A stretch of DNA of 35,486 nt, taken from NCBI GenBank assembly GCA_013203665.1, contig JABMPU010000097.1, positions 1 through 35,486 on the forward strand, written 5' to 3'. How positions within the stretch are numbered: position 1 is the stretch's first letter; every line of letters starts with the position of its first letter. Shown here piece by piece: positions 3,035-30,850 of the stretch. The notes under the pieces were generated by a model. That model was not told the DNA's origin. It was given only the letters and a program-made list of their open reading frames with translations, and made no database searches. The position numbers and the translations under genes are program-made. This DNA is from Armatimonadota bacterium (GTDB lineage: Bacteria > Cloacimonadota > Cloacimonadia > Cloacimonadales > TCS61).

Positions 3035-3156
3035 AATTCTATGCTCCTTGAAAATTATTGAGAAACTAATCCAAAAGAAATCGAGTTCTCAAGTTTGTCA
3101 ATAATCTTTTTATTCATAAAGAGTTATGTTTCTTATTGTTTTGTTTGACTCAGGAA

Positions 3157-14705: not shown

Positions 14706-15281
14706 ATGAAATTTAAAAAAGAAATTTTTCAAATTAAAATTACTTTAAATGATTCCAAACCACCAATCTGGAGAAGATTTTTAGTGGAATCAAATGTTAA
14801 ATTACCTGATTTACATAAAATTATCCAGACAGTGATGGGCTGGACGAATTCACATTTACATCAATTTGATAAAAACGGACAGTATTTTTGTGAACCTGCA
14901 GAACAAGAGTATTATGAAACGATTGATTACACTGATATTCAGCTTAAAGAATTTTTGTTTGAAGAAAGAGATACTTGTTATTACGAATATGATTTTGGCG
15001 ATAGCTGGAGACATAAAATTGTTCTGGAGAAAATCTTACCTTTTGATAAAAATCAGAATTATCCTGTTTGTACTGCCGGAAAGAAAAATTGTCCACCTGA
15101 AGATTGCGGTGGAATTTGGGGATATTATAATTTACTGGAAATAATCAAAAATCCCAAACACCCGGATTACGAATCTATGATGGATTGGCTTGAAGAAGAT
15201 TTTGATCCGGAATATTTAGATTTAGAAGAAATTAATGAATTGCTACAAAAGAAAGATTTTGGCTGTTTTTCGATGTTTTGA
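14706..15281 (+). CDS. pRiA4b ORF-3-like family protein
   Basis: This 191-aa protein has the family's features: an N-terminal FQIKITLNDSKPPIWRRFLV, LHKIIQTVMGWTNSHLHQF, YEYDFGDSWRHKIVLEKIL, and the C-rich CTAGKKNCPPEDCGGIWGYY followed by acidic helices. The family was named from a plasmid gene of Rhizobium and is often found near mobile elements. Its function is unknown. Length is typical of the single-domain form. Ribosome site AAAGGAG. It is a single gene flanked by repeat-rich spacers, consistent with acquisition by transfer. Confidence 0.9.
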   Translation: MKFKKEIFQIKITLNDSKPPIWRRFLVESNVKLPDLHKIIQTVMGWTNSHLHQFDKNGQYFCEPAEQEYYETIDYTDIQLKEFLFEERDTCYYEYDFGDSWRHKIVLEKILPFDKNQNYPVCTAGKKNCPPEDCGGIWGYYNLLEIIKNPKHPDYESMMDWLEEDFDPEYLDLEEINELLQKKDFGCFSMF

Positions 15282-15320
15282 TTAGTTTTCACCTCGATAG
15301 CTTTCCGAAAATTTAAGTTC

Positions 15321-15426
15321 TTTGTGACAGAAAATACATAATTTACCCTGACTTTGTGACAAGCTTTGTAAATATTACCCTTACTTTGTGATAATGTAAT
15401 AAAATTTTACCCTGACTTTGTGACAA
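15321..15426. repeat. Four direct repeats with exact 32-bp period
   Basis: TTTGTGA begins at 15321, 15353, 15385 and 15417. Three units carry the longer consensus TTACCCTGACTTTGTGACAA (TTACCC at 15343, 15375, 15407), with about 12 variable bases between them. The period equals about three helical turns, so a protein could bind all units on one face. The array lies in the spacer before the hsdM relic and TrlF-like gene. The repeats are too short and the gaps too small for CRISPR. Confidence 0.85.
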
Positions 15427-15527
15427 ACTGAGTAATTATTTTTAATAAATTTAATTGAAATAAAGTTTTTTGTTTGACAACAAAAGTGTAAAAAACCAAA
15501 TTCAGCAAGGATTTAAATATAAGTTAA

Positions 15528-15641
15528 TTTCGGATTATTGAAATAAAAAAAGAAAAAGAATTGGTAAATGCTAATAAAGAGTTAATTGAAATATTTGAGC
15601 AGAAGATAAAAGACAGAATTGCGAGAGTTTGGGGAGCATAA
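15528..15641 (+). pseudogene. C-terminal remnant of a type I methyltransferase subunit (HsdM)
   Basis: Directly before the TrlF-like ATG, a 37-codon frame ends ELVNANKELIEIFEQKIKDR then IARVWGA-stop. This closely resembles the extreme C-terminus of HsdM N6-adenine methyltransferases. Upstream it runs into a stop (TAA 15525-15527) and has no start codon, so only the tail remains. The TrlF-like gene starts one base after it and takes its ribosome site (GGGGAG) from the relic. This suggests the two were once an operon within a type I restriction-modification island. The identification rests on a short match from memory. Confidence 0.7.
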
Positions 15642-15642
15642 T

Positions 15643-18600
15643 ATGCAGAAATATCCAAAAGGTTCAGAATGGAGAAAATGGGATTTGCAAGTCCAAACAA
15701 TTACTGATGACAATTATAAATCAATAAATACATATTATGAAGAATTAAAAAAAACTTATCCAACAAAATGGGAAGAATTATGTAAAAAAGTTGGTTCAGA
15801 AGATTTAGTAATTAAGTATGATTCGAAATATTATTTTTTTTCGGACACTGTTGATAACGAAAAAAAAAGAGCAAAAAATTATGCAAATATATTTTTAACT
15901 TTTTTAGATATTTTTAATTCAGATACAGGAGCAGTTTGTATTACAGACCATAATTATGAACACCCATATTTAATAGATTCACTTTTAAAAGAATCTGTGA
16001 ATACTAAAACAAAAATTATCCCTGGAGTTGAAATAAACGTTCAAGGTATTCATTTTATTGTTTTGTTTGGAGAAATCCCTTATGAAAAAAGCTCTTATTC
16101 AGAAGGTATTAAAACTTTTTTATCAAAAATTAATATTGATAACAAAAAAACAAATAGTAAATTAACAGTAAGTGATAAAAGCTATACAGATGTAATTGAT
16201 GAAATAAACACTATTGGTGCTATATTTATTTATCCACATTGTAATTCGACTAAAGGTCTTTTTCAAGAAAGAGGAAAGACTGATAGAACTCACCTTGCAG
16301 ATCAATTTAATTATGTGGATTTTAATATTTTACAATCTAAAAATAATTCCTCAGTAACAAAAACAGAAGAATATATTTTAGGAAATGATCAATTGAAATC
16401 AAATTTTGCATTTACTCTTGGTAGTGACGCGAGATCATTAATAGATACTTTCAAACCTGACAAATCAGGAAATTTCTGTTGGATAAAAGTCGATCCTACA
16501 TTTGAGGGTTTAAAGCAAATAATTTATGAACCGGAAGATAGAGTATTTATTGGTAAGAAACCTGAATTACTTGTAAGAGTAATTTCAAATAGAACAAGAT
16601 TTATCAAAAGTATTGAAGTAATACACGAAGAAGGATATGATGAAAGTAAAGGGATTTGGTTTAAAAATATTAAAGTCCCAATCAATTATGGGATGGTCGC
16701 TATAATTGGAAATAAAGGTAGTGGTAAAAGTGCGTTGACTGATATAATTGGATTATGTGGAAATTCACATCATTATAATGATTTTTCTTTTTTAAATAAA
16801 AAACGTTTTTTAAAAAATAATTTAGCAAGACATTTCAAAGCAAATTTAGAATGGGCAAGTGGAGAAATTACACCTAAAAATTTACTTTCTGATGTAGATT
16901 ATAATGCACCAGAGAGAATTCGCTATTTACCTCAAAATTTCTTTGAAAGACTAACAAATAATCTTGATAATTACGATTTCCAAAAAACACTTGAAGATAT
17001 TGTATTTTCATATTTACCAGAAGTAGAAAAATTAGGCAAAAACTCTTTTGAAGAATTAATAAGATATAAAAAGGAAGGCATCAATAAAGATGTTGAATTA
17101 ATAATTGATGAAATAGATAAGATTAATGAAGAATTAATAGAACTTGAAAATAAAATGCATCCTGCCTATAAGGACAAACTTGTCAAAGAATTAGCGATTA
17201 AGAAAAAGGAATTAGAAGAACATTTAAAAAATAAGCCACCCGAAGTAAAAAACCCTGAACTTGATAAAGACACGCAAGAATATAATAAGGAAATATCAGA
17301 CCAAATCAACGACAAAAATAAGATAATTGAAGAATTAATTTCAAATATTTCACAAAAAAAAGATAGAGTAGTTATATTAAAACAAGAAATTGAAGAATTA
17401 GACGTTTTTAATCGTGATTTTGTACGTTTTGAAAATGAAATTAAAACATTTCTATCTACAAAAAAAGAAGCATTAAAAAAATACAATTTAAATGTAAACA
17501 AGCTTTTAAAATATGAGATAGATTTATCAGAACTAAATAAAGTTATTGAGAAAAAGAAAAAAGAATTTAAGGATACATCAAAGGTAGTATTATCCGCAAA
17601 TGAAATTGAAACTAAATACTCGTTAGAGGAACGAACTCAACTAATTTTAAATAGTTTAATCGTAAAATTAGATGTATTAGAAAAAGATATAGCGAAACTA
17701 AAAGGGAAATTATCCGAACCTTATAAGAAATATCAAGATTATTTGGAAAATCTAAAAAAATGGGAAAATAATAAACTGTCTATTGAAGGGAAAGAAGATT
17801 TACCTCAAACTATAAATTGGTATAAAAATGAAATAAAATACATTGATAATGAGCTACTTATATTAATTAACAAAAAAAGAGAATTACATATAGAAAAAGC
17901 AATAGATATTCTTAACAAGAAATTAGAACTTCTTGATATTTACAACAAATTAAAAACATCTGTAGATGGTGAAATCAACGATTATAAACAAATACTTGGA
18001 GACTACGATATCAATATTGATGTTGCATTAAAATTGATGACTAATTTTATTAAAGAGTTTTTATCTTATATTAACCAAAACAAAAAAGGGTCATTTTTTC
18101 AAATAGATGATGGTAGAAAAAGAATTGAAGAATTAATAACAAGTTATAATATTCAGTCAAAAGAAGGAATTACAGAATTTTTAAAAGCTATTATAAATAA
18201 TTTAGAGAATGACAAAAGAACAAAATTTAATAATGAATCTCGTTATATAAGCGAACAAATAAATGATAACAAACTACCTTCTTTTTACAATTATTTATTC
18301 TCAATTAGTTATTTAGAACCTTCTTACGAATTAAAATTAGGAGATAAACAATTAACAGAACTTTCACCCGGTGAAAAAGGAGCAATGCTAATTGTTTTCT
18401 ATTTAATGTTATACAAGGATAACATTCCTTTAATAATTGATCAGCCAGAAGAAAATTTAGATAATGAAAGCATTTACAAAATTCTTGTTCATTTTATTAG
18501 AGAGACAAAGAAAAGACGACAAGTTATTATAATAACGCATAATCCTAATTTGGCAATTGTAGGAGATGCTGAACAAATTATTTATGTAACAATTGATAAG

Positions 18601-18729
18601 AAAAATAAAAATAAATTTAGTTATAATTCTGGTTCAATTGAAAATCCAGTAATAAACAAACATGCTTCTGATATATTAGAAGGAACTTTAAAGGCTTTTG
18701 ATATTAGAAGATTAAAATATTATAGGTAA
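15643..18729 (+). CDS. TrlF-like PHP-domain / SMC-type ABC ATPase
   Basis: This is a 1028-aa protein. Residues about 8-290 form a PHP-type domain (WRKWDLQVQT, CITDHNYEHP, IIPGVEIN, GSDARS). Walker A GNKGSGKS is at 356-363, and a long coiled-coil region spans about 480-870. The ABC signature LSPGEKGA starts at 907, Walker B IPLIIDQPEENLD at 928-940, and the H-loop is ITH966. This is the architecture of TrlF-family AAA-like ATPases, often linked to restriction or defence loci. The usual metal-binding HxH of the first PHP motif reads QVQ, and the last motif reads DAR where DAH is common. ATG 15643 is preferred over the ORF-track TTG 15619. The gene is markedly more AT-rich and Lys/Asn-rich than its neighbours, suggesting transfer. 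Its cellular target is unknown. Confidence 0.85.
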   Translation: MQKYPKGSEWRKWDLQVQTITDDNYKSINTYYEELKKTYPTKWEELCKKVGSEDLVIKYDSKYYFFSDTVDNEKKRAKNYANIFLTFLDIFNSDTGAVCITDHNYEHPYLIDSLLKESVNTKTKIIPGVEINVQGIHFIVLFGEIPYEKSSYSEGIKTFLSKINIDNKKTNSKLTVSDKSYTDVIDEINTIGAIFIYPHCNSTKGLFQERGKTDRTHLADQFNYVDFNILQSKNNSSVTKTEEYILGNDQLKSNFAFTLGSDARSLIDTFKPDKSGNFCWIKVDPTFEGLKQIIYEPEDRVFIGKKPELLVRVISNRTRFIKSIEVIHEEGYDESKGIWFKNIKVPINYGMVAIIGNKGSGKSALTDIIGLCGNSHHYNDFSFLNKKRFLKNNLARHFKANLEWASGEITPKNLLSDVDYNAPERIRYLPQNFFERLTNNLDNYDFQKTLEDIVFSYLPEVEKLGKNSFEELIRYKKEGINKDVELIIDEIDKINEELIELENKMHPAYKDKLVKELAIKKKELEEHLKNKPPEVKNPELDKDTQEYNKEISDQINDKNKIIEELISNISQKKDRVVILKQEIEELDVFNRDFVRFENEIKTFLSTKKEALKKYNLNVNKLLKYEIDLSELNKVIEKKKKEFKDTSKVVLSANEIETKYSLEERTQLILNSLIVKLDVLEKDIAKLKGKLSEPYKKYQDYLENLKKWENNKLSIEGKEDLPQTINWYKNEIKYIDNELLILINKKRELHIEKAIDILNKKLELLDIYNKLKTSVDGEINDYKQILGDYDINIDVALKLMTNFIKEFLSYINQNKKGSFFQIDDGRKRIEELITSYNIQSKEGITEFLKAIINNLENDKRTKFNNESRYISEQINDNKLPSFYNYLFSISYLEPSYELKLGDKQLTELSPGEKGAMLIVFYLMLYKDNIPLIIDQPEENLDNESIYKILVHFIRETKKRRQVIIITHNPNLAIVGDAEQIIYVTIDKKNKNKFSYNSGSIENPVINKHASDILEGTLKAFDIRRLKYYR

Positions 18730-18946: not shown

Positions 18947-18975
18947 AACTTATAAGTAAAACCCAACACTAAAAA

Positions 18976-27044: not shown

Positions 27045-27533
27045 TCACAATTCATACAAATCGAGCATTCTGATTTTACCTGCTGACGAATATTTCCAGT
27101 CTTCTGTGTAATTAACATAACCTTTTCTAACAGGATTCTCAATAATATAATTAGCCTTTTGCAGGAAGAAATTTTCTGATTCGATTATTTCAGGAAAATT
27201 CTTGGGCTGCCAAATATGAAAGCCGTCTTCTGTTTTGAATAGTTTCAAAAGATTAGGTTCGGTTTCACGAATATTTTCAATTAACTGATGGGCTGTATAA
27301 CTTTTAAAAGAATTAACAAATTTTATTGCGTCAGGTGATTGAAAAATAAGGTGAATATGGTTGAGCATGAAAACCCATGTTATAATTTTCAGATCATTAT
27401 TTTGCTGGTAATATTTTAATGCGTTTAAAAGAATATCCCAACGTTCATGCCGATCGAAGACGTAATACCATTTTTCAATAGTAAATGTCACAAAATATAT
27501 TTGATCGATTCCCGTTCTATGAATTCGTGGCAT
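27045..27533 (-). CDS. REP-associated Y1 (HUH) transposase, RAYT type
   Basis: This 162-aa protein belongs to the IS200-like single-strand transposase superfamily. It has IYFVTFTIEKWYYVFD, the HUH motif in MLNHIHLIF (His 59 and 61) and IWQPKNFPEIIESENFFLQK. It ends with NYIIENPVRKGYVNYTEDWK then YSSA, the RAYT subgroup style. RAYTs mobilise or maintain REP palindromes rather than a full insertion sequence. The catalytic Tyr is uncertain: the usual place near WQ reads NF, and Tyr 79 (SFKSYTAHQ) is a candidate. ATG 27533 with AGGAAG upstream is preferred over the TTG at 27557, which falls inside a repeat. Palindromic repeats flank it on both sides. Confidence 0.88.
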   Translation of the reverse strand: MPRIHRTGIDQIYFVTFTIEKWYYVFDRHERWDILLNALKYYQQNNDLKIITWVFMLNHIHLIFQSPDAIKFVNSFKSYTAHQLIENIRETEPNLLKLFKTEDGFHIWQPKNFPEIIESENFFLQKANYIIENPVRKGYVNYTEDWKYSSAGKIRMLDLYEL

Positions 27534-27550
27534 TGTTATCTTCCTTCGTT

Positions 27551-27683
27551 GTTTCAACCATTCTCACTTAGCTGCTGTTTCAACCGTCCGTCTCTCTGTT
27601 GTTTCAACCGTCTCGGTATTGCATAATTCTCCGACCGGGACGGTCGTCTCCAACCTTTCCTTCAACCGGAACAGTTGAAGGAA
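27551..27683. repeat. REP-type repeat cluster B (upstream of the transposase)
   Basis: TTTCAACCGT at 27578 and 27602, and TTTCAACCAT at 27552. CGACCG-gga-CGGTCG follows, then CCTTCAAC...GTTGAAGG. Bases 27630-27669 match 30717-30756 at 39 of 40 positions. Confidence 0.88.
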
Positions 27684-30504: not shown

Positions 30505-30576
30505 ATTTACGATGTTAACAGTTCAGAAGTCCAAATTTGCGACATTAATAATTCAAAAGTCCTAATTTACGACATT
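30505..30576. repeat. Direct repeat array with exact 30-bp period, upstream of the kelch gene
   Basis: ATTTRCGAYRTT occurs at 30505, 30535 and 30565. The last two units agree over 25 bases with few changes (TTCARAAGTCCWAATTTRCG). The array is 54-125 bases upstream of the kelch start codon, where an operator would be expected. Confidence 0.75.
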
Positions 30577-30663: not shown

Positions 30664-30850
30664 CGTTGTTTCAACCGTCCCGGTGTTGCAGAGTATTCAA
30701 AACGAATTTATCATATTCCGACCGGGACGGTCGTCCCCAACCTTTCCTTCAACCGGCATCCGTCAAAAGCCGGAGTAAACGCTGCCGGTTGAAGGGGCGA
30801 TAATGGGTGGGATGTTTAAAGGGACGATACTGAGTGGGACGGTTGAAGGG
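30664..30850. repeat. REP-type repeat cluster C
   Basis: GTTGTTTCAACCGTCCCGG, then CGACCG-gga-CGGTCG (30719-30733), then a perfect 13-bp stem CCTTCAACCGGCA / TGCCGGTTGAAGG around 30746-30795. The 30717-30756 block nearly equals 27630-27669. This is the most complete copy seen. With the neighbouring array and hairpins it fills the 715-base gap between the kelch and 720-aa genes. Confidence 0.85.

Follow-up and report, generated by a model that had tools for sequence, protein, structure and literature searches.

A 32-bp phased repeat array that is probably the relic of a PDC-S01-type ATPase operator

The stretch analysed here (35,486 nucleotides, contig JABMPU010000097.1 of assembly GCA_013203665.1; hereafter the window) carries an array of direct repeats which is probably the promoter-proximal operator of a PDC-S01-type ATPase that is missing here, and which at intact loci would be bound by this ATPase and serve its autoregulation. 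PDC-S01, in which an ATPase is joined to a domain of PD-(D/E)XK type, is a phage-defence system known as a candidate only and is reported to be the fourth commonest defence across prokaryotes (PMC12988326). The gene that usually neighbours the array belongs to this family; in the window the gene itself is absent. More useful than the window relic is the general rule that the promoters of PDC-S01 genes are usually accompanied by phased repeats whose sequence is specific to the lineage. For a family without known ligand, the lineage-matched array is a candidate DNA ligand, such arrays would predict which PDC-S01 protein binds which sequence, and orphan phased repeats like those of the window can be explained as scars of lost genes. 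No description of arrays at PDC-S01 genes was found in the literature, of which few subscription papers or preprints were covered.

The window array and its missing gene

As the first-pass annotation had reported, TTTGTGA occurs four times at steps of exactly 32 bp, the boxes starting at 15321, 15353, 15385 and 15417; by these boxes the array extends over 15321-15426, and by its 20-mer units over 15311-15426 (Table 1). The same annotation had counted three copies of a 20-base consensus: two are exact and the third is a near copy. The window array is well above chance: TRF gave it a period of 32, 3.1 copies and a score of 112, the highest in the window, and the phased score over three copies was 18/20, where 200 windows shuffled by a first-order Markov model gave 12-14. 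When up to three mismatches were allowed, the 20-mer had neither a second site nor an inverted copy in its own 3.4-Mb assembly; this single site rules out a dispersed repeat, and in place of widespread single unphased copies the motif was found to recur in phase. Two more tandem arrays, at 30505-30576 and 30786-30850, repeat every 30 and 27 bp, and an ORF at 27045-27557 on the minus strand resembles, by eye, a REP-associated (Y1-type) transposase.

Table 1. Positions of the repeat units and of neighbouring features in the window
Feature	Position	Strand	Description
pRiA4b ORF-3-like gene	14706..15281	+	PF07929; 92% amino acid identity to L024; upstream of the array
Unit 1	15311..15330	+	Degenerate; left half lost, right half CTTTGTGACA retained
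Unit 2	15343..15362	+	20-mer TTACCCTGACTTTGTGACAA, exact
Unit 3	15375..15394	+	TTACCCTTACTTTGTGATAA; 2 mismatches to the 20-mer TTACCCTGACTTTGTGACAA
Unit 4	15407..15426	+	20-mer TTACCCTGACTTTGTGACAA, exact; L024 homology stops at 15426
Post-ATPase sequence	15462..15532	+	82% identity to L026 3137-3206
Probable hsdM-like N-6 DNA methylase C-terminal remnant	15528..15641	+	37 aa
TrlF-family ATPase gene	15643..18729	+	NF045780, 542 bits (cut-off 350); not the original partner of the array

The gene order at the sister locus L024 is pRiA4b gene, array, ATPase gene and urocanase-like gene. The window matches L024 at 86% as far as 15426, where the array ends, and the match resumes at 18958. Shortly downstream of the array, the window carries a segment whose counterpart at L026 follows the ATPase stop codon (position 3084), and at L027 a C-terminal ATPase remnant is present after the array. 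Because homology to L024 ends where the array ends and is followed by post-ATPase sequence, and in view of the L027 remnant, a loss of the ATPase is the most likely history and, for the window locus, is strongly supported by these alignments. HMM searches of the window matched no hidden ATPase remnant, and the genome encodes no close PDC-S01 protein elsewhere (best identity 35%, in an assembly 93% complete). The array has thus kept its 32-bp period with no cognate ATPase downstream; since this ATPase is present at the L024 site and is gone here, with a TrlF gene in its place, the window array is probably a relic rather than an intact module.

The genes that now stand beside the array had suggested other partners. 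The first-pass annotation had placed it with the TrlF ATPase, but the array was found at none of the nine other over-cut-off TrlF genes in relatives (0/9, some contigs holding little upstream DNA), and a TrlF operator was rejected. The window TrlF protein reads WDLQVQT in the region encoded by 15643-15720 where the TrlF proteins of L215, L217 and L219 read WDLHVHT or similar, and the first histidine pair of the PHP-type site therefore appears to have been lost. Of the lost hsd genes that had also been proposed, a lost hsdM has weak support: the 37-aa remnant aligns at 53% with an annotated N-6 DNA methylase (34 aa, E 2e-3) and matches no family HMM. However, an hsd-linked site was rejected, as there is one methylase remnant here and hsd genes are not general neighbours of the array.

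Phased, lineage-specific arrays at PDC-S01 genes

A search for the 20-mer and its period in 99 relatives recovered phased arrays of the same 20-mer in 8 further genomes; in 5 of these (L023, L024, L026, L029 and L030), the next gene encodes an ATPase of ~450 aa. A two-unit pattern scan in which each species was represented by a single genome yielded 82 stretches, most of them from Bacteroidota and others from Cloacimonadota, Neomarinimicrobiota, Ignavibacteriales, Calditrichia, Aminicenantes and one Thiotrichaceae MAG. The motif is present in 2-7 copies spaced by 32 or 33 bp, about three helical turns. A full AAA_14-DUF4143 ATPase is encoded directly downstream on the same strand at 47 of the 76 nonredundant loci, in several phyla; among the remaining 29 are contig ends, broken ATPases (L060, L064, L088, L092 and L099) and ~18 solo arrays. 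The representative ATPase P0001 (L041) scores above the cut-offs for Pfam AAA_14 and DUF4143 and matches the PADLOC PDC-S01 model with an E value of 4e-193. These data strongly support a link between the array and PDC-S01.

Homologues retrieved by protein similarity only have other repeat sequences at the same spacing, such as TTGCCCTTAGTTTGACC, TTGCCCCGACTTTTTACGACTTTGCC, AACACCCTTGGATTTGGATGACTTTGT and TTAACCCTAATTCTGTGAC. A strong upstream self-match was found for 28 of 35 protein-retrieved nonredundant homologues, always at 32 or 33 bp, against 8/122 random windows from the same loci, none of them (0/122) at 32 or 33 bp; upstream regions of other genes were unsuitable as a control because they contained the same arrays. 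For nine plasmid- or phage-borne homologues (Chlamydiota, Gammaproteobacteria, Bacteroidota and phages), the best shift was 32 or 33 in seven. Among distant DUF4143 genes, some (L189, L190, L203 and L205) have palindromic repeats at 32/33 bp and others have none. The repeats also follow the protein: the more alike two ATPases were, the more alike were their repeats (r 0.41, p 0.0005, n=35), the correlation being weaker (r 0.25) in a protein-retrieved subset of 18, and one Chlorobiota genome encodes four homologues with four different arrays. In the genome of the window, contig C23 (L125) encodes a distant AAA_14 homologue (27% identity) with 33-bp repeats that differ in sequence from the window array, TTCGACCCTTATTACA.

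Promoter register and predicted DNA recognition

In most Cloacimonadota loci with an identified TTGACA -35 box, the box follows the left module of the last unit by 33 bp; in the others the distance is 30-32 bp, apart from a few loci in which degenerate units had been overlooked. In Bacteroidota, a -7-like box (TAnnTTTG) is present in the last spacer of 15/50 loci, compared to 2/76 inner spacers. The Cloacimonadota register and the Bacteroidota enrichment together support an overlap between operators and promoter. At the window relic, TTGACA occurs at 15474, 62 bp after the last unit and within the post-ATPase-like sequence, outside the 30-33 bp register.

The AlphaFold model of the ATPase (pLDDT 91.5) contains an AAA+ domain, and a winged helix is predicted at about residues 227-283, followed by a PD-(D/E)XK-like domain, the placement being based on secondary structure, conserved residues and the published description (PMC12988326). 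The layout is that of the Cdc6/Orc1 initiators on origin DNA, AAA+ plus winged helix, and the top Foldseek match is 2qby (Cdc6/Orc1), at a low TM-score (0.28); in contrast to these initiators, the ATPase has an extra nuclease-like domain and the array sites are gene-proximal and not origins. Once overall identity was accounted for, residues 251-275 of the winged helix predicted best, among 54 sequences, how similar the arrays are (partial r 0.43, familywise p 0.003, shared ancestry being ignored). Helices with SR[E/D] co-occur with TGTNAC-type arrays (13/2 versus 0/18, p 2e-7), two patterns picked after seeing the data and a p value that likewise ignores shared ancestry. For the 33 protein-retrieved sequences, the helix was significant (p 0.003), but residues 351-365 correlated better.

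Intact loci carry 2-7 direct repeats 32-33 bp apart just upstream of the ATPase gene, the last unit overlapping the promoter at the best-resolved loci. On the reading that we favour, the winged helix would bind the repeats of its own lineage cooperatively, the bound ATPase would cover the -35/-33 region and limit its own expression, and infection or a loss of occupancy would relieve this self-limitation. The ATPase is thus the putative binder of the operator, and its repression of the promoter and its role in immunity are likewise proposals. The first-pass suggestion of an operator whose protein binds DNA cooperatively is retained, with the TrlF-type ATPase removed as its owner.

Alternative readings of the array

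Several observations run against the ATPase as reader of its own operator: residues 351-365 outrank the helix in the protein-retrieved set, solo arrays persist in Arenibacter, and phages carry doublets without the ATPase. In five Arenibacter species (L032, L042, L054, L057 and L097), solo arrays with no close ATPase precede genes that look HipB/HipA-like by eye, and their core is conserved despite divergence of the upstream flank. Five phage groups in IMG/VR (L113-L123) have a two-unit array and no ATPase in the available contig DNA; these doublets sit in intergenic gaps or over the start codons of structural-type genes, one of them over that of a likely tape-measure protein, as judged from length and position. 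The solo arrays and the phage doublets would both be expected if the operator were read by a separate regulator, host-encoded or phage-type, and a precedent exists in RptR, a dimeric repressor that acts on direct repeats overlapping the promoter of an EPEC defence island (PMC12255303). The likeness lies in serial direct repeats that overlap a defence promoter. However, RptR is a separate small regulator that uses 9-bp repeats with a TAGCTA core, whereas the arrays described here differ in sequence, repeat every 32/33 bp and have no separate regulator in view; as unit and period differ and TAGCTA is absent from 15311-15426, an RptR operator was rejected. Moreover, no conserved second gene accompanies the array and ATPase module in the loci displayed, and a separate regulator would have to account for repeat sequences that track the ATPase lineage across phyla, down to the four arrays of the four homologues in one genome. 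We therefore regard a separate regulator as unlikely.

The same phage doublets could be given a role within immunity itself. PDC-S01 would then be a sequence-specific DNA-recognising immune ATPase with the array as its resting site, and the motif on an invader would be a target or decoy that triggers attack: phage-borne copies at structural-gene boundaries would shift PDC-S01 from self-repression to attack. We hold this extension to be rather improbable. No phages carrying either of two other array types were found, and DNA searches gave no match among PLSDB plasmids or INPHARED phages, so that a plasmid or named-phage origin of the array was discarded.

An operator pure and simple does not predict that homology should break repeatedly at the array end, as it does between the window and L024 at 15426 and in Algoriphagus (L049/L033), with the ATPase remnant of L060 starting at this same place. 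These three cases could reflect selection for the array, preferential recombination there or mere chance. If the array were a recombination or insertion site for the gain and loss of the ATPase gene or other cargo, such breaks would be expected, as would the variation of post-array cargo between Cloacimonadota genomes and the 91.5% identity of array plus ATPase between two genera whose U32 proteins are 60-68% identical (the window genome serving as proxy for g1). This reading is nevertheless improbable. No recombinase is linked to the array, and of the inverted copies that a Tn7/Tn402-like transposon would carry at its other end, the loci displayed showed none at up to four mismatches and scattered weak ones at five, within the limits of the contigs. 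Remnants at L027 and other loci point to plain decay, and the promoter register and the lineage-specific sequences would be left unexplained. A recombination target and an iteron had both been offered in the first-pass annotation; neither gained positive support. An iteron-like replication or segregation site would fit direct repeats in helical phase and an ATPase whose top Foldseek matches are Cdc6/Orc1 initiators on origin DNA, but it is very improbable given that the contigs are mostly chromosomal, that the loci displayed hold no rep or par partners and that the PLSDB plasmids gave no DNA match. Equally far-fetched is an RNA leader: one array, from Bacteroidota, forms a more stable fold than its shuffles (z -2.7), but for two others this is not so (z -0.7 and +1.3), no Rfam match passes the gathering score, and in Cloacimonadota the array precedes the -35 box; a structured RNA was rejected on the Rfam result and on folding above shuffles in 1/3 arrays.

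The operator reading thus stays the preferred one. As a minor observation on the repeats themselves, GGGT replaces CCCT in some units (L043, L059, L060, L063, L075, L076, L091, L107 and L110), and in L063 and L107 the GGGT units alternate with normal units.
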